This document shows, piece after piece, positions 45,074 through 58,609 of a DNA stretch of 64,000 bases; position 1 is the stretch's first letter; each line of letters starts with the position of its first letter. Under the pieces are notes generated by a model, which had not been told where the DNA came from, searched no databases, and worked only from the letters and a program-made list of their open reading frames with translations. The stretch covers positions 5,135,174 to 5,199,173 of the forward strand of contig CM001633.1 in NCBI GenBank assembly GCA_000309945.1. Direction: 5' to 3'. This DNA is from Leptolyngbyaceae cyanobacterium JSC-12 (GTDB taxonomy: Bacteria > Cyanobacteriota > Cyanobacteriia > Leptolyngbyales > Leptolyngbyaceae). A program made the translations under genes and the position numbers.

Positions 45074-46012
45074 ATGGACTGGAGTCCAGCAATTCCAACA
45101 TTTTTAATTACTCTGCGAGAAGGGGTTGAAGCTGCACTAGTGGTAGGAATTGTGCTGGCCTGTTTGCGGCAGGCAAAACAGTTTCAACTCATTTCTTATG
45201 TCTATTTCGGTATTGTTGCAGGGCTGGGAGCCAGTGTTGTGGTGGGAGGCTTGCTGCTGCAACTCTTGCACCAAGTGCAAAATGTAACTACGCCCAGCAT
45301 TGTGATGATGCGGCAATTGCTGGAAACAGGGTTGAGTGTATTGGCGATCGCGATGTTGAGTTGGATGCTGATCTGGATGACACGACAGGCGCGATCGCTA
45401 AAAGCCGAAATTGAAGGCTCGGTGCAGTCAGCTGTTGCCGGAAATGGGATTGCTGCCTGGGGAATCTTTAGCTTGATTGCTACTGCTGTATTACGAGAAG
45501 GATTTGAAACTGTTCTGTTTGTTGCAACACAATTTCAAACAGGTTGGACTCCCTTGTTGGGTGCGATCGCTGGAATTGTCGGAGCCGTGATCATTGGAGT
45601 GCTCCTGTTCAAATGGGGCATTAAAATCAACCTCAAACAGTTTTTCCAGGTGATGGGAACTCTGCTCTTACTGATTGTGGCTGGGTTAGTGATTTCAGCT
45701 TTACGACACCTGGACATCGCCGCGATCGCCTTTGTGCAACTTCATCCCCAAGCTACCTCACTGTGCTGGTCAGCGCCACCTACCTGTTTACTGGGTCCAC
45801 TAGTGTGGGATGCTCATGCTATCCTACCAGACAAGGAATTTCCTGGCATTATCCTCAAAACCTTGTTTGGATATAGGCAAACGCTCTATATGGTGCAGGC
45901 GATTGGCTATTTACTATTTCTGAGCGTGGTGGGTAGTCTCTATTTCCGTAGTTTTAATCCTGTCAGAACGACGTCATCAAAACCAGATCTTGCTCTCAAA
46001 AATGCGGAGTGA
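45074..46012 (+). CDS. FTR1-family iron permease
   Basis: 312 residues with about seven TM helices. The two REGxE motifs that bind iron in Ftr1/EfeU permeases are present: LREGVEA (Arg15-Glu19) and LREGFET (Arg141-Glu145). The loop before the last TM contains WSAPPTCLLGPLVWDAHAILPD. Such permeases move ferric or ferrous iron across the cytoplasmic membrane, in bacteria usually with a partner oxidase (EfeO/EfeB), which is not adjacent here. It is a single-gene unit ended by an inverted repeat shared with the convergent antiporter. Iron import fits the iron-stress operon about 10 kb downstream. Confidence 0.9.
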   Translation: MDWSPAIPTFLITLREGVEAALVVGIVLACLRQAKQFQLISYVYFGIVAGLGASVVVGGLLLQLLHQVQNVTTPSIVMMRQLLETGLSVLAIAMLSWMLIWMTRQARSLKAEIEGSVQSAVAGNGIAAWGIFSLIATAVLREGFETVLFVATQFQTGWTPLLGAIAGIVGAVIIGVLLFKWGIKINLKQFFQVMGTLLLLIVAGLVISALRHLDIAAIAFVQLHPQATSLCWSAPPTCLLGPLVWDAHAILPDKEFPGIILKTLFGYRQTLYMVQAIGYLLFLSVVGSLYFRSFNPVRTTSSKPDLALKNAE

Positions 46013-46280: not shown

Positions 46281-47852
46281 CTATGCTTGCATATCGTCAA
46301 GGTTTTGCTGCAAAAAAGGAGCTAACTCTCGGTTAAGTTGTCCAGCGCGGACAAGTTCAGCATAGGTATCGGCTTCTACTGCCAGCAATTCTAACTTGAA
46401 CTGTTCAGTAGCAAATTCTCGTAAATCGGGATGCTCATCTTGTAAGGTATCAATTTCAGTTTCCAGGCGACCCATTTCTCCTTTAATCAAAGATTCTTGA
46501 TAGCGGTAAAATTCTGGCTCGATCGCTGGGCGATTTTCGGCTTGATTGAGATATTGAAGCACCCGTTTCAAGGCAGCTAACCGAGCGATCGCCTCTAAGA
46601 ACTCTTGCTTAAGAGGTTGATTTCCCAACAACTTCAGTTGTTCCAATAAGGGTTTAATCGTCAATCCTTGCACTAGCAATGTGAACAACACCACCCCAAA
46701 CACAGTTGCAATAATCTCTTCACGATCTGGCAAAATGGCAGGCACACTCAATGCTAGCGCAATCGAGACGGAACCTCTTAGCCCGCCCCACCAGAGCACA
46801 GTTTGCTCTTGAAGTGGAATACTGGATTCGGTAATGCGATTACTTAGAGCACTCAAACTGTAGATTGCGATCGCCCGTGTTATTAGCATGGCAATCAGTG
46901 TGATCGCGATCGTATTCAGATTTTGTCCTAATACATTGAACCGAATTTGGTCACCAATTAGCAAAAACACAATCGAATTCACAAAAAATGCTAGAAATTC
47001 CCAAAACTCACTCACAATAATGCGAGTTCGAGGATTCATCCCAATCCGAGAACCAAAGTTGCCTAAAATTAACCCCATAGTCACGACTCCAATTACTCCG
47101 GAGCCGCCTAGATCCTCTGTAATCAGGTAGGTGCCATAGGCAGAAACGAGAGTTAGTGACTGTTCCACCAAGGGCAAGTCGAAGCGCTGTGTCAGGTAGG
47201 AAATGCCAAAACCAATCAAACTCCCAATGGCAATTCCAAGCCCCACGACCCGTACAAATTCGAGCACAGCTGATTGAAGCGACAAATCTGCAGTTCCCAG
47301 CGGCAACGCTACCAGAAAGCTGAAGGCAACTACTGCCATCCCATCATTAAATAGACTTTCTCCTTCCATTAAGATGCTGAGACGGCTCCCCACTCCCAGT
47401 TCTCGAAATAGAGCAATGACCGAGACCGGATCGGTGGCAGATAGGCTAGCTCCCACTAGGAGTGCAGTTGTTAAAGAAACTCCTGCCAGTTGATTTAACC
47501 CTAAAGCGATCCCCGCGATCGCAATCACAACTCCAATCACAGCGAAGAGACAAATAGGCACTAATTCTCGTTTCAACTCTTGCCACTTCAAGTTCCACGC
47601 CGCTTCAAACAAGAGGGGTGGTAAAAAAATAGACAAAATCAGTTTGGGCGATAAATCTACCAACCGTACATCGACAAATGCTAGCCCTAACCCAACAATG
47701 ACCAATAGCAGCGTGTAGGGAATCTGGCGAAACCAGCTAAAAATGCGAGGTAAGGTTGCCACGCTTAGGGAAACGGACAACACTAGCAGAAATTGCTTGA
47801 GGTTTGTTTCGATCGCCACTTCGCTGAAGGTTGCATCCATAATCTCCATCAT
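46281..47852 (-). CDS. CPA1-type Na+/H+ antiporter
   Basis: 523 residues: about twelve TM helices followed by a cytoplasmic tail of about 120 residues. The CPA1/NhaP signatures are ATDPVSVIALF and EGESLFNDGMAVV (Asp in the ion path), and IVFLLIGDQIRF and WGGLRGSVSIALAL in the second half. It exchanges Na+ for H+ to control salt and pH. The C-terminal helical tail (ALKRVLQYLNQAENR, GEMGRLETEIDTLQDEHPD) resembles NhaS-type regulatory tails. Two nearby ATGs (47852 and 47840) are possible starts. Divergent to the 1265-residue hydrolase-like gene. Confidence 0.92.
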   Translation of the reverse strand: MMEIMDATFSEVAIETNLKQFLLVLSVSLSVATLPRIFSWFRQIPYTLLLVIVGLGLAFVDVRLVDLSPKLILSIFLPPLLFEAAWNLKWQELKRELVPICLFAVIGVVIAIAGIALGLNQLAGVSLTTALLVGASLSATDPVSVIALFRELGVGSRLSILMEGESLFNDGMAVVAFSFLVALPLGTADLSLQSAVLEFVRVVGLGIAIGSLIGFGISYLTQRFDLPLVEQSLTLVSAYGTYLITEDLGGSGVIGVVTMGLILGNFGSRIGMNPRTRIIVSEFWEFLAFFVNSIVFLLIGDQIRFNVLGQNLNTIAITLIAMLITRAIAIYSLSALSNRITESSIPLQEQTVLWWGGLRGSVSIALALSVPAILPDREEIIATVFGVVLFTLLVQGLTIKPLLEQLKLLGNQPLKQEFLEAIARLAALKRVLQYLNQAENRPAIEPEFYRYQESLIKGEMGRLETEIDTLQDEHPDLREFATEQFKLELLAVEADTYAELVRAGQLNRELAPFLQQNLDDMQA

Positions 47853-48252: not shown

Positions 48253-51200
48253 ATGGGCGAGTTTATGTCATCACTAATGGATCGCGTTTGGGAAATCCTG
48301 GGTTGGGTATTTGTGTTAAACGGGGAAGTCTTCCAGACTGTGACGACTTTACCAGGAGGTATGACCCTTGCTATTTGTGTGGTTCTGCTGGCAGGGCTGT
48401 CGCTGGCAATAGGTCAAGCCATCGTCTTATTTATTAACCGCGTTAAACCTATCCGGTTTATCTTCACGTTGCTCATTAGTGCAATTTTATATTTGTTTGA
48501 ATTTTTGTTTCTGGTACTCAGCACATGGCTCATTTGTTTGTTGCCCGGCTCCGTTGATGTACCGCTTCCAGCTTTGGTTATCGTTCTGGGGTTAAGTTAT
48601 GCGCCGTTATTATTCAGCTTTTTGGGAGCGTTGCCATATTTGGGGTTTCCGCTGTTAAGGATTCTCTCTATCTGGCATTTACTGGCGATGGTCGTGGGCT
48701 TTGGTGCAATCGCGAATATTGGTGCTGGGTTTGCCTTTGGGTATGTAGCCTTTGGTTGGTTTGTGAAAGAACTGCTGAGTAATACCGTTGGTCAGCCCAT
48801 TGCTCGCTTGGGTAGAGCTATTTCTGAGCGCGTTGCAGGAGTAGACCTGGCAGACAACCGGGCAGAACTGGCTGAACGAGTTCAGTCTCGCTTCAGTAGT
48901 CTCTCTTCACCCATGGTGTCTGCTTCACAAACAACACTTCCCGAAGTACAAGCGCTAATCCAGGCAAGCGATCGCTCCCATCCCCAAGCTGCTCAGGCAA
49001 TTGCTCAAGCTGTTACAGCCCATCCCTTATCAGCCACCAGTAGCGTTCTGCTGCAAGACACTGGTGCGATCGATTCCCTAGTGGAATTTACCTACAAAAC
49101 CAGCAGCATTCCTAAACCAATCAAACTGGTTCTGAGTTTACTGGGCTTAGTGGGACTGTTTGTCGTCGTGATGATTTTGCTACGCCCAATCAGAGACGGA
49201 CTGTTTGGTTGGTACGAAACCTTGCCCCGTTTTACTCGCTTGATATTTGATCTGAGTTGGATCGGCATCGTTGCCATTATCTTTGCTGGGCTGTTAGCGC
49301 CGCTTGAAACCTTAGGTTGGTGGGCTGGTTGGTTTGGCGATGAAGTTGATACCGCTCAAGCTGCTGTTCCTGCTGGTTCCATCCCCTTTGACTGGGACAA
49401 CAACGACAAACCATCACGCTACCTTATCTATCTTGACGGTGTTGGGCAATCTGGCGAGGCATACACCCCCGATGTTGAGGACTTTTTGACCGCCCTAAAG
49501 CCAGCACTCCCGGAAGATATAGAACTGGTACATGGGTTAATGATGTATTCCGTTTTGAACAAGCCCTTGAATGAAGACCGACCGTTGGCGTTTTTGTGGA
49601 AACTGGCAGATAAAATGCGTTGGAAAAATCCAATGGCGCTACTGGGCTTAATGGTCAACGTGCGAAATGCATTGATCGTGATGGTGTCAGCGGATAAGCG
49701 CTACGGTCCCATCTATAATCGCGGCATTGCTCAAGTGCTTTACAACGGCTTAGTCAAGAGAGGTTATCCACCTGGTAGTGGTATCCCGATTACGCTAGTT
49801 GGCTACAGCGGGGGTGCTCAAATGTCTGTTGCCTCTGCTCCTTACTTGAAACAGGCGTTAGAAGCACCCATCGATGTCATCTCGCTGGGGGGGGTGATGA
49901 GTGCAAACAACGACTTCCTGAAACTAGAGCATCTTTATCACTGGATTGGCGACAAGGATGTGGTGCAGCGGTTAGGTCCCTTGCTGTTTCCTGGACGCTG
50001 GAAGTTCTTCATATTGTCTTACTGGAATCGGGCCTTACGCAAGGGTAAAATCTCGATTCTCTCATCTGGACCGGTGGGGCATCAGGTTCCAGGCGGATAC
50101 ATGGACCCTAACGCATTTTTACCGGATGGACGCAGTCATTTACAACAAACAATTGAATTCATTCTGCAAGTTCTAACTGGGAATCTGTTGGAGACGAAAC
50201 AGCGCTTTCCAGTTAAATCCAGTAATTATTCACTCTATAAGCAAGCAGACTTTAACAATCCAGCTTATTACCCACTGAATCAAACTGTTGATGTAACTCA
50301 GTATCCAGCGATCGCATCCTGGATGGGTCGCTTAATTTTGCCCAACCGAGACGCCCGCTCAACCGTCCGAGGGGTGCTGTTTGAAGTTCACCATACCGCA
50401 CCTGGCTATGAGCACTTAGTTGGACAAAGAGTGATCCTGCGTTGGGCAAATCTCCCTATGATCAAAGATCTGGTGCAAGCCGCGAGACGGGATTTGCACT
50501 TCAGCGCCGATGCGGAATACACCAGTAAATATGGCGGCTTAATTCATCCTGAACGCCTGAACCACTGGCAACAGGTGGGACCATTGGAATCATTGGCAGG
50601 CTCCTATCCAACAGACGACATGATTGTGATGTTGAACGAGCCAGTGGAAGTTGAAGAAGGTGAAGTTAATGACAGTCAACCACCTCTATCATCTTTCCCA
50701 TCCCCTCATCCCATCCCCTCCACAATTCTTCGCATCTGCAGCCAACCCGTCCAAATCACTGGGCGCTTTTATGCCTTGGTGCGGTTTGTGCAGCCCATTC
50801 CTGGAACAGATCAGTTTCGAGTGGTGCATTTCAACAAAGCAACCCGCGACTTTAATGGAGCAGAGGATGTGGTGCGGTTACCAGAAGTGGTAGTTGCTGC
50901 GGCATATGGTAGCTCTCCATCAACTAGCCGCGGTCTGGAAAGGTCTCCGTTCAATGAAACTGGCTGGTACATTTACGGTGCCAAGGATGATCGGGGCGTT
51001 TTCGTAGTGCAGGCGTTGGGACCACGGGCATTATTCCGCTTGCAACCAGAGGAAGTGGTATTTGGCAAGAAAGCATCTTACCGTTACATTCGCAAACGGT
51101 CCTGGGCAAATATTAAGGCGCAGAAGGGAGATATTTCATCAGTTTTGTGTGTGGGGAATAATCATGTCTCCCCTTCAGCGATTCAAACTGCCATTGATGA

Positions 51201-52050
51201 TTGGAAAGAGGGCGATCGCGCATTGTTAATCCACGTCTATGGTGGGATTGGAGGTAAAAAGGCAGAACCAGCCGCGGCTACCCCCATTTTCTTTGGACAC
51301 TTCGCTTTTGGTGTAGCGAAGGTAGTTCGTGAACCGTTGACTGATGAATTGCGATTCGACTTACGTTATCACCAGGTATATACCCATAACACGGATGGGT
51401 TAATTGCAGGCACTCTTCACTGGTCACGGTACATGGGCGATCGCCAGTTTGGGTGGCTCGGCACCCGTCCTGTGTGTGACATTCTGATCAAACATGATGC
51501 TTTTACTGGTTATTACGACTTTTCTACCGGGCGGCAATCGCCCTTTGACTATATGCTGGCGCAACTAGAAGTGATGACTGCCCGCTATCGAATTGGAGAC
51601 GGAACTGGAGGCACCTACGTCGGTGCAGCTAGCAACTGTGCTCAAGATTCTAACCAGGCAATGTTTGCCAGTCTGCGACAAATCGAGCGCAAAATTCGTG
51701 CCAATGCAGATGCCCTACAGCGATGGAGCGAAGTCCATCCTGAACAAGCCTATCGTTTCAAAGACTTGCTTGCCCTGGGTAAGGAACTTAAACAGCAACT
51801 ACAGCCATTAGGTGGAGAACAATCTGCTTGGGAACGCAACGAATATAACTTAGGGACCACTCTGGAAGATGATCCCATCCACAACTTGTTGACTGGACTA
51901 GGCAGTTGGCGAACTATGCTGCCCCGTCTGGCTAGCGATACAGTCGTTAAAGTTTTTCTTGATCATGGTGCAAGCGTTTGGGTACTGCGAACCAATCAAG
52001 TCGGGGGCTATGATCCTGACATTGAGCCGATCGCTCCGATGACGTTGTAA
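48253..52050 (+). CDS. Large membrane-anchored hydrolase-like protein, 1265 residues
   Basis: About eight hydrophobic segments lie in residues 1-370 (for example TLAICVVLLAGLSLAIG, IFTLLISAILYLFEFLFLV and LVLSLLGLVGLFVVVMILL), then a large soluble part. Around 390-620 it resembles an alpha/beta hydrolase: RYLIYLDGVGQSGE and a GYSGGAQMS nucleophile elbow with Ser519. The far C-terminal part has FFGHFAFG (His1016) and VGAASNCAQDSNQAMF (Cys1129), an arrangement like permuted papain-type (YiiX/LRAT-like) domains where the His precedes the Cys. The family is known to me only as uncharacterised large cyanobacterial proteins. A lipid- or envelope-directed hydrolase is inferred. Starts at 48253 or 48265 are both possible. 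Confidence 0.8.
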   Translation: MGEFMSSLMDRVWEILGWVFVLNGEVFQTVTTLPGGMTLAICVVLLAGLSLAIGQAIVLFINRVKPIRFIFTLLISAILYLFEFLFLVLSTWLICLLPGSVDVPLPALVIVLGLSYAPLLFSFLGALPYLGFPLLRILSIWHLLAMVVGFGAIANIGAGFAFGYVAFGWFVKELLSNTVGQPIARLGRAISERVAGVDLADNRAELAERVQSRFSSLSSPMVSASQTTLPEVQALIQASDRSHPQAAQAIAQAVTAHPLSATSSVLLQDTGAIDSLVEFTYKTSSIPKPIKLVLSLLGLVGLFVVVMILLRPIRDGLFGWYETLPRFTRLIFDLSWIGIVAIIFAGLLAPLETLGWWAGWFGDEVDTAQAAVPAGSIPFDWDNNDKPSRYLIYLDGVGQSGEAYTPDVEDFLTALKPALPEDIELVHGLMMYSVLNKPLNEDRPLAFLWKLADKMRWKNPMALLGLMVNVRNALIVMVSADKRYGPIYNRGIAQVLYNGLVKRGYPPGSGIPITLVGYSGGAQMSVASAPYLKQALEAPIDVISLGGVMSANNDFLKLEHLYHWIGDKDVVQRLGPLLFPGRWKFFILSYWNRALRKGKISILSSGPVGHQVPGGYMDPNAFLPDGRSHLQQTIEFILQVLTGNLLETKQRFPVKSSNYSLYKQADFNNPAYYPLNQTVDVTQYPAIASWMGRLILPNRDARSTVRGVLFEVHHTAPGYEHLVGQRVILRWANLPMIKDLVQAARRDLHFSADAEYTSKYGGLIHPERLNHWQQVGPLESLAGSYPTDDMIVMLNEPVEVEEGEVNDSQPPLSSFPSPHPIPSTILRICSQPVQITGRFYALVRFVQPIPGTDQFRVVHFNKATRDFNGAEDVVRLPEVVVAAAYGSSPSTSRGLERSPFNETGWYIYGAKDDRGVFVVQALGPRALFRLQPEEVVFGKKASYRYIRKRSWANIKAQKGDISSVLCVGNNHVSPSAIQTAIDDWKEGDRALLIHVYGGIGGKKAEPAAATPIFFGHFAFGVAKVVREPLTDELRFDLRYHQVYTHNTDGLIAGTLHWSRYMGDRQFGWLGTRPVCDILIKHDAFTGYYDFSTGRQSPFDYMLAQLEVMTARYRIGDGTGGTYVGAASNCAQDSNQAMFASLRQIERKIRANADALQRWSEVHPEQAYRFKDLLALGKELKQQLQPLGGEQSAWERNEYNLGTTLEDDPIHNLLTGLGSWRTMLPRLASDTVVKVFLDHGASVWVLRTNQVGGYDPDIEPIAPMTL

Positions 52051-55854: not shown

Positions 55855-56883
55855 ATGCAGACATACGATAATCCGACGGTCAAATATGACTGGTGGGCAG
55901 GGAATGCCCGCTTCGCCAATCTGTCTGGTCTATTCATTGCGGCGCATGTCGCTCAAGCCGCACTCATTACGTTTTGGGCAGGTGCTTTCACATTATTTGA
56001 AATCTCTTGGTTTGACCCAACCCGTCCCATGGGCGAACAAGGAGTCATTCTCCTACCTCACCTTGCGACATTGGGACTGGGTGTAGGAGATGGAGGAAAA
56101 GTGATTGATACGTATCCTTATTTTGTTGTAGGGGCAGTTCATCTGATTTCCTCTGCAGTATTGGGGGCAGGGGCATTGTTCCACACTTTTCGAGCACCCG
56201 AGGATCTCAAAACCGCAACGGGACAAGCCAAGAAATTCCATTTTGAGTGGAATGACCCCAAGCAGTTGGGGCTAATTTTAGGGCACCATCTGCTATTTTT
56301 GGGTTTCGGAGCGTTGTTATTGGTGGCTAAAGCTATGTACTGGGGCGGGCTTTACGATGCAGCATCACAAACAGTGCGAATCGTCACAGCGCCAACTCTA
56401 AATCCAGCCATTATTTACGGCTATCAAACTCATTTTGCGAGTGTTGACAATCTTGAAGATTTGGTTGGTGGTCACATTTATGTGAGTATCCTGCTAATTG
56501 CGGGTGGTATTTGGCATATCCTTGTACCGCCGCTGAAGTGGGCAAGAAATGTGCTAATTTTTTCAGGCGAAGCAATTTTGTCTTACTCATTGGGTGGAAT
56601 TGCATTAGCTGGTTTCGTCGCTGCCTATTTCTGTGCTGCGAATACGCTGGCATATCCTGTTGAGTTTTACGGCGCACCCTTAGAAATAAAACTGGGAATT
56701 GCTCCCTACTTTGCAGACACTGTAGCGTTGCCCCTGGGTGCTCATACTCCACGATGCTGGTTAGCAAATACTCATTTCTTCCTAGCATTCTTTTTCTTAC
56801 AAGGGCATCTGTGGCACGCATTACGAGCAATGGGATTTAATTTCCGTCAACTTGAGCAAGCACTCAATTCCGTAGAAGTTTGA
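55855..56883 (+). CDS. isiA: Iron-stress-induced chlorophyll-binding protein (CP43')
   Basis: 342 residues, typical length of IsiA. Six TM helices with His-rich chlorophyll-binding positions, for example [80 protein letters not shown] and [19 protein letters not shown]. The long lumenal loop of PSII CP43 is absent, as in IsiA/Pcb antennae. It surrounds photosystem I under iron starvation and dissipates or harvests light. It is followed by flavodoxin (isiB) and isiC on the same strand. A terminator-like hairpin follows the stop, which fits the usual excess of isiA mRNA over isiAB. Confidence 0.95.
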
Positions 56884-56896
56884 TTCCTCACAGAGC

Positions 56897-56957
56897 AGAG
56901 GGATTTCTCCAACATCATGATTATGAACGGATAGAATCCCTCTTTCTTAAATTTTTG
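56897..56957 (+). terminator. Hairpin with T-rich tail after isiA
   Basis: Arms agagggatt (56897-56905) and aatccctct (56935-56943), then TTCTTAAATTTTT. Located just after isiA and before isiB, so probably a partial terminator giving more isiA than isiAB transcript. The other 280 bases before isiB show no further feature. Confidence 0.65.
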
Positions 56958-57240
56958 TATCAACATTCGAAGCCGTAATTTCTCCTTAGAATCGGGTTGG
57001 TATTGCCCTGGTTGTAGACAAAGGATGCCTCTTTTATTAGAGGATGTATTAGAGGATAGTTATGCGTTATCAAGTTGCGATCGCATTCAGAATTTGAAAC
57101 ATTACTGGATATGTATACTGCTCAAGCCAGATTATCAAAATAATGCTTGGGATAAACTTATCCAGATCTAACATCCCTGTCATTGAGAGGAAGATTCACA
57201 GTCAATCCAATTGCTAAACAACAGCATAGTAGGAGTAAAG

Positions 57241-57753
57241 ATGGCAAAAATTGGTTTGTTTTATGGTACTCAAACTGGCAAAACTCAAACAGTTGCTGAA
57301 TTAATTCAGAAAGAGTTTGGTGGTGATAGCGTTGTTGATCTATATGACATCGCAAATGCCGATCCCAGTGACTTTGAAGCATATCCATACATTATTGTAG
57401 GTTGTCCAACCTGGAATATTGGTGAGTTACAAAGTGACTGGGAGGGCTTCTACGATGAATTAGATGCAATTGACTTTAAGGGCAAGAAAGTTGCATATTT
57501 TGGTACTGGCGACCAAATCGGTTATGCAGATAATTTCCAAGATGCTATGGGTATTTTGGAAACAAAGATTTCTACCCTGGGTGGTACAACCGTTGGCTAT
57601 TGGTCTACTGATGGTTATGATTTCAGTGAATCAAAGGCGGTTCGGAATGGAAAGTTTGTTGGATTAGCAATTGATGAAGATAACCAGTCTGAACTGACAG
57701 ATAGTCGCATCAAATCGTGGATTGCTCAATTGAAGCAAGAGTTTGGTATCTAA
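57241..57753 (+). CDS. isiB: Flavodoxin
   Basis: 170 residues from MAKIGLFYGTQTGKTQT (FMN phosphate loop T-Q-T-G-K-T). Further FMN contacts are in VGCPTWNIGELQSDW and FGTGDQIGYADNF, and the C-terminus YWSTDGYDFSESKAV is the long-chain flavodoxin insert. It replaces ferredoxin in photosynthetic electron transfer when iron is scarce. AGGAG lies upstream of ATG 57241. It forms an operon with isiA and isiC. The family match is very clear. Confidence 0.96.
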   Translation: MAKIGLFYGTQTGKTQTVAELIQKEFGGDSVVDLYDIANADPSDFEAYPYIIVGCPTWNIGELQSDWEGFYDELDAIDFKGKKVAYFGTGDQIGYADNFQDAMGILETKISTLGGTTVGYWSTDGYDFSESKAVRNGKFVGLAIDEDNQSELTDSRIKSWIAQLKQEFGI

Positions 57754-57850
57754 CCTGTGTTGAAAGGAAGAATTTTGATGACACGAACTTCTTCCTTTCA
57801 TTGATTTGTTTACAGATCGTTCGAGGCAATACTCTTTTAAGGATTTACGA

Positions 57851-58609
57851 ATGTCTGAACTGCCCGATGCTCTCTGGCTCAATGTAAGTGCGGCTCTACA
57901 GGGATTTGATCGCCCGTTGCTTAAATCTTTATCTCATCATGTTTCTATTGCACAGTGGCAATATTACCAACCGCAGGATGAGGGGTTGTCTTTAGAAACT
58001 GCACTAGTTTTACTCCATGATTATTTGAAACAACATCCTCGTCCAATTCATCTGCTAGGGCATGGCACAGGTGGATTGTTGGCATTGCTTTACACTCGTC
58101 GCTATTCTGAACGGGTGCGATCGCTAACGCTATTATCTGTGGGGGTACACCCTGCGGTCGATTGGCAGGCTCATTACTATGCCCAACTGCAACTCTTGCC
58201 CTATTCGCGTAGAATGCTGTTAACCCAAACGGTGTTCAACCTATTTGGTTACCAGTCTCCTCCAATTGCACGAGAACTTCAACAGTTATTAGAGCGAGAT
58301 CTAGAGAGTTCTTTATCACCTCATAGTTTGTATCAGAGGGTCAGTTTTTTCCCAGGTGGAGTAACGGTGCCTCTTTTAGTATGTGGCAGCAACACAGATA
58401 TGGTGATTGATCCTAATTTGTTACAGGGATGGCAACCTTGGTTAAAACCGGGCGATCGCCTTTGGGTTTGCCCTGATGGGCGTTACTTCTTCCATTTCTT
58501 TCATCCACAACTTGTGAGTCAGCAAATTACTCAGTTTTGGATTTCTCAGCAGCCACAAACTAACACAAACATAAGTTTAGAAGTAATTTCTTCCAATAAG
58601 TCCAGGTAA
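57851..58609 (+). CDS. isiC: Alpha/beta-hydrolase of the isi operon (IsiC-like)
   Basis: 252 residues from MSELPDALW. An alpha/beta hydrolase with a GHGTGG elbow; the nucleophile position between the two glycines is Thr-Gly rather than the usual Ser, so catalysis may be altered (HLLGHGTGGLLALL). A late Asp and His (VIDPNLL, YFFHFFHP) could complete a triad or be relics. The gene follows isiB by about 100 bases and is placed like isiC genes encoding esterase-like proteins in cyanobacterial iron-stress operons. AAGGA before the ATG fixes the start; the longer frame from 57806 has no site. Confidence 0.8.
   Translation: MSELPDALWLNVSAALQGFDRPLLKSLSHHVSIAQWQYYQPQDEGLSLETALVLLHDYLKQHPRPIHLLGHGTGGLLALLYTRRYSERVRSLTLLSVGVHPAVDWQAHYYAQLQLLPYSRRMLLTQTVFNLFGYQSPPIARELQQLLERDLESSLSPHSLYQRVSFFPGGVTVPLLVCGSNTDMVIDPNLLQGWQPWLKPGDRLWVCPDGRYFFHFFHPQLVSQQITQFWISQQPQTNTNISLEVISSNKSR

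Follow-up and report, generated by a model that had tools for sequence, protein, structure and literature searches.

Can one membrane protein carry two separate acyl-processing centres, one built around a serine and the other around a cysteine? This question is raised by a gene of Leptolyngbyaceae cyanobacterium JSC-12 (a genome of 5.53 Mb in one contig), which lies at positions 48253..52050 (+) of the 64,000-nucleotide stretch of DNA analysed here (the window; contig CM001633.1, positions 5,135,174 to 5,199,173, forward strand). A preliminary description of this DNA had proposed an uncharacterised, 1265-residue protein with multiple membrane helices, a GYSGG serine-hydrolase elbow at Ser519 and, separately, a His1016...Cys1129 pair in a layout like that of permuted papain- or LRAT-type domains. 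We found that the window protein is a three-part chain, composed of a Yip1-like membrane module, an alpha/beta hydrolase and a module of no known family, which we call M3. From the evidence set out below, we tentatively favour the reading that it is a membrane-anchored, two-centre acyl-processing enzyme (a hydrolase or acyltransferase) that acts on lipids or lipoproteins.

The gene is a real open reading frame (ORF) that runs from ATG to stop, and it has full-length relatives; the window protein and 55 of these make up our full-length alignment. The protein does appear to be uncharacterised: neither Pfam nor NCBIfam yielded a match in a whole-protein search at E values up to 10, and PADLOC yielded none at E up to 0.01. 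Sequence searches of the PDB with P0001 (the window protein), A1 and A2 returned only matches with E of at least 0.28, and seven relatives with separated parts had no NCBIfam match at E up to 0.1. Among the matches listed from open-licence PMC articles, searched by titles and abstract openings, we found no publication on a Yip1-hydrolase or an M3 protein.

The predicted alpha/beta hydrolase domain spans residues 380-645 (49390..50187, +). In the AlphaFold2 (AF2) model that holds it, whose predicted local distance difference test score (pLDDT) averages 76.7, residues ~270-645 were matched by VIA-align to the dienelactone hydrolase 7jka with Z 14.0 (root-mean-square deviation 3.4, 209 residues aligned). 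All of the 50 VIA-align rows listed fell inside residues 268-645, and their titles were mostly those of dienelactone hydrolases, esterases, lipases and thioesterases. The best Foldseek match was YjfP (E 3.1e-3), none of the rows reaching an E value of 0.001, and Pfam Thioesterase was weakly matched by 7 of 42 relatives (best E 0.012). As had been proposed, this fold holds the GYSGG nucleophile elbow (residues 517-521; 49801..49815, +), the single GxSxG of the protein. Its Ser519 is accompanied by a predicted triad acid, Asp569 (49957..49959, +), and a predicted triad histidine, His610 (50080..50082, +), and each of the three is kept in 55 of 55 full-length relatives. In a wider set of 101 hydrolase ORFs, distinct in sequence with close relatives among them, Ser519 was kept in 98 and both Asp569 and His610 in all 101; the five members of this set that lack M3 retained the complete triad. 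In L069, L071 and L072 (Rhizonema/Scytonema), GFGAG replaces GxSxG, with glycine in place of Ser519, and the cysteine motif of M3 is kept. Together, the modelled fold and the conserved Ser519-Asp569-His610 triad make the predicted serine centre well supported. The window protein resembles 7jka, TesA and YjfP (dienelactone hydrolases, esterases and thioesterases) in the fold of residues ~380-645 and in the Ser-Asp-His triad, but it differs from hydrolases of this type in that it is predicted to be membrane-anchored, is fused to the Yip1-like and M3 parts and lacks a Pfam match.

The proposed second centre lies in M3 (residues 650-1265; 50200..52047, +), which was modelled by AF2 with a mean pLDDT of 85.5 and a pTM (predicted template-modelling score) of 0.90. 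Scans of the M3 part of 57 relatives gave scattered weak Pfam matches, each family in at most 4 relatives (best E 0.0098). Residues ~675-930 (50275..51042, +) form a beta-rich part with weak, non-significant resemblance to OB folds (VIA-align Z 2.0-2.7). The translation places a histidine at residue 1016 and a cysteine at residue 1129, and the preliminary description's pair proved highly conserved: His1016 is present in 55 and Cys1129 in 54 of the 55 full-length relatives. We then considered 118 distinct M3 sequences spanning at least 450 residues, with shorter and identical ones dropped. In this set, the candidate catalytic histidine, His1016 (51298..51300, +), which opens a beta strand (377-387 of the model), was invariant (118/118), as was Tyr1112 (51586..51588, +), a candidate for the signature tyrosine of NlpC/P60 enzymes. 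Gln1041 (51373..51375, +), the candidate polar third residue, closes the following strand (model residues 394-402) and was kept in 117. The candidate nucleophile, Cys1129 (51637..51639, +), which opens a long helix (490-510 of the model), was kept in 116 and is a serine in L024 and L077. It is the sole cysteine among the 59 columns conserved at 97% or more; Cys1075, for comparison, is kept in 71 of the 118 sequences. M3 ORFs without the hydrolase also retain the pair, with His1016 in 25 of 26 (one gap) and Cys1129 in 24 of 26 (two gaps).

The two sites have been lost separately. The three relatives with Gly519 keep the M3 residues, and the two with Ser1129 keep GYSGG, a pattern as expected of two distinct centres and also of decay. 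On the strength of conservation, residue order and placement in the model, a cysteine centre in M3 composed of Cys1129 with His1016, Gln1041 and Tyr1112 is plausible. A second conserved histidine, His994 (51232..51234, +; 117/118), could replace His1016, which would then serve as the polar residue; indeed, the pattern finder returned the His994 assignment ahead of the His1016 one.

The arrangement of these residues recalls a known group of enzymes. As described in the part of Xu et al. drawn on here (PMC3142127), NlpC/P60 enzymes have four catalytic residues: a dyad of cysteine and histidine, a signature tyrosine and a polar residue. In permuted members the cysteine is found close to the C-terminus, and the authors make a case that the substrates are lipid-like. 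M3 shares with the permuted papain-like enzymes (LRAT/YiiX) of that account the order His-polar-Tyr-Cys and, in its predicted model, a histidine at a strand start and a cysteine at a helix start. It differs from them in size, with ~600 residues versus a small domain, and in that no similarity to them was found by comparison of hidden Markov models (HMM-HMM) or among the Foldseek rows listed.

We found that the three parts also occur together in other arrangements. At an E value of 0.001, 32 of 58 genomes (the own genome and relatives) had a match, and a scan of species genomes returned 72 loci in Cyanobacteria, Candidatus Eremiobacterota and Chloroflexota/Caldilineaceae. The M3 profile was matched in 37 of 292 cyanobacterial genomes (E 1e-5) and in 6 of 251 genomes of the phylum of L085 (E 0.001). 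The own genome encodes three M3 proteins: the window protein, a hydrolase-M3 protein beside a Yip1-like protein, and an 862-residue form without the hydrolase. Across relatives the parts are fused, split behind the first part, or separate, with boundaries at residues 1-210, ~285-645 and ~650-1265; the fused form is found in cyanobacteria and Eremiobacterota, and Chloroflexota have separate adjoining genes. Three adjoining ORFs in the order M3, Yip1-like, hydrolase are present in L085, L086 and L092, and L228 and L230 have separate adjoining genes in the order of the fusion (Yip1-like, hydrolase, M3). In L229 and L231 the hydrolase is followed by M3, and no Yip1 match was found within the short stretch covered. 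Because the modules adjoin as genes elsewhere and are fused here, the two centres would appear to form one system. Near the fused gene, on the opposite strand, L044 (7348-8481, -) and L048 (8659-9738, -) have a second, stand-alone hydrolase gene.

These observations suggest how the protein could work. In the two-centre reading that we favour, the Yip1-like module and further helices would anchor the protein in the membrane, and the Ser519-Asp569-His610 triad would cleave an ester or thioester bond, either in a lipid or in a substrate modified with one. M3 would contribute a second, thiol centre, in which Cys1129, with His1016 (or His994), Gln1041 and Tyr1112 in a permuted papain-like arrangement, would accept an acyl group and then either hydrolyse it or pass it on. 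The serine and thiol centres would act jointly as one system, as their genomic association suggests. A lipid or an acylated protein is a reasonable inference for the substrate.

Several results weigh against this reading. Comparison of M3 with LRAT, C92 and NlpC/P60 by hhalign gave probabilities of just 0.1-0.2%, and the result was likewise null with the 118 M3 sequences and with three narrower stretches; the LRAT, C92 and NlpC/P60 alignments were built from 30, 23 and 25 sequences, respectively, and the positive controls were themselves modest (LRAT-C92, 39.6; LRAT-NlpC/P60, 48.0). In the same kind of comparison, the two halves of M3 gave a higher score (3.0-3.6) when set against each other. 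Foldseek returned nothing significant for M3 from the PDB (best E 0.61, best 50 of 172 rows) or from BFVD (best E 0.14, best 50 of 229 rows), and the best VIA-align score was Z 2.7, among 4 rows that covered model residues 36-291 and thus barely touched the His/Cys half. No papain-like structure was present among the 50 of 172 PDB, 4 VIA-align and 50 of 229 BFVD rows listed. The loop directly before the Cys1129 helix (477-485 of the M3 model) has pLDDT below 50. In addition, when the conserved columns of M3 were shuffled 20000 times, an ordered His-polar-Tyr-Cys arrangement arose 436 times (2.2%), with windows chosen post hoc, after the protein was known; the pattern is therefore suggestive, not decisive. 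At the level of gene content, L084, L227 and L232 have M3 without a hydrolase match within the stretch covered, and the genes around the fused form vary, the commonest groups within two genes occurring in 6-7 of 72 loci. On these low counts, we rejected the idea of a constant neighbour gene of the fused form.

Thus, the two structural parts of the preliminary description fared differently. Structure prediction bore out the alpha/beta hydrolase fold around Ser519. For the His1016...Cys1129 pair, the conservation, the order and the placement in the model held up, whereas HMM-HMM comparison of the cysteine region lent the proposed papain- or LRAT-type relationship no support, and no papain-like fold was among the structures listed for M3, which barely covered the His/Cys half. 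Because the hhalign probability was only 0.1-0.2%, we do not file M3 as a member of the permuted papain-like enzymes; it may nonetheless work like one.

The same results speak for a different explanation, in which the serine hydrolase is the sole enzyme and M3 is a non-catalytic module for substrate binding or scaffolding, whose conserved histidine, tyrosine and cysteine have a structural role or hold a metal or a cofactor. Here M3 has no convincing enzyme fold or family match, its beta-rich first half gives weak OB-like matches, and its 59 highly conserved columns are more than a four-residue centre explains. Yet a structural or ligand-binding role sits less easily with one near-invariant cysteine that has no near-invariant cysteine partner, with the position of Cys1129 at the start of a helix in the model, and with the retention of His1016 and Cys1129 in nearly all hydrolase-free M3 ORFs. 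We regard this explanation as doubtful, but as one to be taken seriously. The protein might instead be a membrane-bound protease or amidase whose targets are peptides or peptidoglycan, the hydrolase serving as an accessory. This would also account for the NlpC/P60-type residues of M3, and a polysaccharide deacetylase gene does adjoin M3 in L086; however, homologues of that deacetylase were present at only 5 of 72 loci, and the nearest matches of the hydrolase are dienelactone hydrolases, esterases and thioesterases. We consider such an activity very improbable.

A further explanation emerges from a paralogue in the own genome (L094:868-3456; C1:515567-517402, -). This 862-residue protein consists of an N-terminal hydrophobic segment, M3 with the GHF and Cys-x-QDSN motifs kept, and then an Rce1-like/CPBP domain. 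The domain (PF02517) was identified by Pfam in two of three scanned M3 proteins with a C-terminal extension (L094, 3.1e-9; L020, 1.1e-6) and gave no match in the third, L023; an EExxxR motif occurs in 9 of 11 proteins with such an extension, L020 and L023 being the exceptions. In the part of PMC7387801 drawn on here, Staphylococcus aureus LnsA (a permuted NlpC/P60 protein by remote homology) and LnsB (remotely CPBP-like) are described as jointly N-acylating lipoproteins, with their separate roles unresolved. The L094 paralogue, which joins a putative papain-like part to CPBP, resembles LnsAB as so described. M3 could accordingly be the LnsA-type part of a lipoprotein N-acyltransferase, with CPBP as its membrane partner in the paralogue and the Yip1-like module plus hydrolase in that role in the window protein. 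Unlike LnsAB, however, the window protein carries the Yip1-like module and the hydrolase in place of a CPBP part, and no CPBP domain was found in it by Pfam; domains of this type were confined to paralogues such as L094. Moreover, most M3-bearing genomes already have Lnt: matches above its curated cut-off were obtained for the own genome (2.0e-70), for 34 of 37 M3-bearing genomes (not for G151, G223 and G315) and for 128 of 292 genomes overall. A tally at E 0.001 (280 of 292) is lax, as the control also matched in 12 of 14 genomes. Because most genomes with M3 thus encode Lnt, there is no gap in lipoprotein N-acylation to fill, and a role for the M3 protein as an Lnt replacement was not supported. 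For the window protein, we judge an LnsAB-like activity to be quite unlikely.

The membrane anchor of the two-centre enzyme that we favour is predicted from the N-terminal part of the protein. Hydropathy analysis identified several membrane segments, in agreement with the multiple helices originally proposed. In the AF2 model, residues 1-210 (48253..48882, +) form five long helices (36-54, 66-95, 105-126, 131-154 and 158-178), and two further hydrophobic helices, likewise predicted to lie in the membrane, occupy residues 288-354 (49114..49314, +). Between them lies a linker (residues 212-285; 48886..49107, +) that is modelled with low confidence (pLDDT below 50 at residues 212-284) and poorly conserved (mean identity 12-29% across blocks 201-300 of the full-length alignment). 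Members of the Yip1 family have five membrane helices. We labelled residues 1-210 Yip1-like on the basis of this helix count and of weak profile matches in relatives (Pfam Yip1 in 2 of 42, best E 1.1e-6). Of three stand-alone relatives, L086 (7.6e-6, 26.3 bits) and L093 (4.4e-5, 23.8 bits) matched and L085 did not in the same scan. The module differs from Yip1 proper (PF04893) in that both stand-alone matches score below the Pfam curated cut-off of 28.6 bits and the window protein itself is unmatched. The Yip1 family is present across archaea, bacteria and eukaryotes, according to the part of PMC5898192 drawn on here.

We also counted lysine and arginine residues as indicators of membrane side, and the counts were mutually inconsistent. 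Loop 1 of the fused form is positively charged, as is the stretch past the fifth membrane helix. In most M3 ORFs of the CPBP type, a positive N-terminus precedes a membrane segment, and L090 and L116 have positive residues behind theirs. Among the Chloroflexota M3 ORFs, 9 of 10 lack a signal or membrane segment; the exception, L227, has a hydrophobic stretch ahead of any clear start. Other short N-terminal extensions bearing a hydrophobic segment precede M3 in L090, L116, L122, L123, L125 and L126.

The hydrolase part also occurs in other settings. Matches were present in 14 plasmid records; in 12 of them, 10 from Sinorhizobium, the match was confined to the hydrolase part. In Nonomuraea, Microvirga and S. 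fredii (L233, L234 and L236), the hydrolase gene belongs to a cassette of adjoining genes, in which a gene for a small membrane protein stands between it and a glycosyltransferase-like gene (assigned by Pfam in Nonomuraea only). The cassette proteins are 61-74% identical to their Nonomuraea counterparts across phyla (an actinomycete and two rhizobia), which suggests transfer. Pfam gave no match for the small protein, and we liken it to the Yip1-like part by position and hydrophobicity alone. This association with a glycosyltransferase hints indirectly at lipid or glycolipid chemistry; a patatin-like gene lies upstream of the cassette in Nonomuraea. The copy of the hydrolase on S. meliloti pSymA (L237:4497-5579) is shorter, has CYGGG at the elbow and looks decayed. 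Among viral contigs, 0 of 27 pattern stretches proved to be a relative, and phage records gave no match; we set aside a viral or phage origin on these grounds.

Within the window, the genes upstream of the fused gene encode an FTR1-type iron permease (45074-46012) and a Na+/H+ exchanger (46281-47852), as assigned by Pfam. Judged by reading of the sequence, positions 55855-58609 appear to encode a chlorophyll protein resembling IsiA, together with a flavodoxin, a pair as in iron-stress operons, and the gene that follows this pair encodes an alpha/beta hydrolase by Pfam.

What would the fused protein mean for the organisms that encode it? In its most far-reaching form, which we consider rather unlikely, M3 would represent a new and strongly diverged branch among permuted papain-like thiol acyltransferases, one that operates in two membrane systems: with CPBP (an LnsAB-like unit within a single chain) and with the Yip1-like module and the hydrolase. 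In the latter, the serine centre would free or capture an acyl group, to be passed on by the thiol centre, such that a single chain would remodel lipids or lipoproteins in two steps. The M3-CPBP fusion would also offer an independent handle on the partnership of papain-like and CPBP proteins, a question left open for LnsAB in the part of PMC7387801 drawn on here. M3 itself is a module of ~600 residues undescribed in the family libraries searched. If both centres of the window protein are active, then the membranes of cyanobacteria and Eremiobacterota would contain a single-chain, two-centre acyl-processing enzyme whose parts are encoded by separate, neighbouring genes in Chloroflexota.

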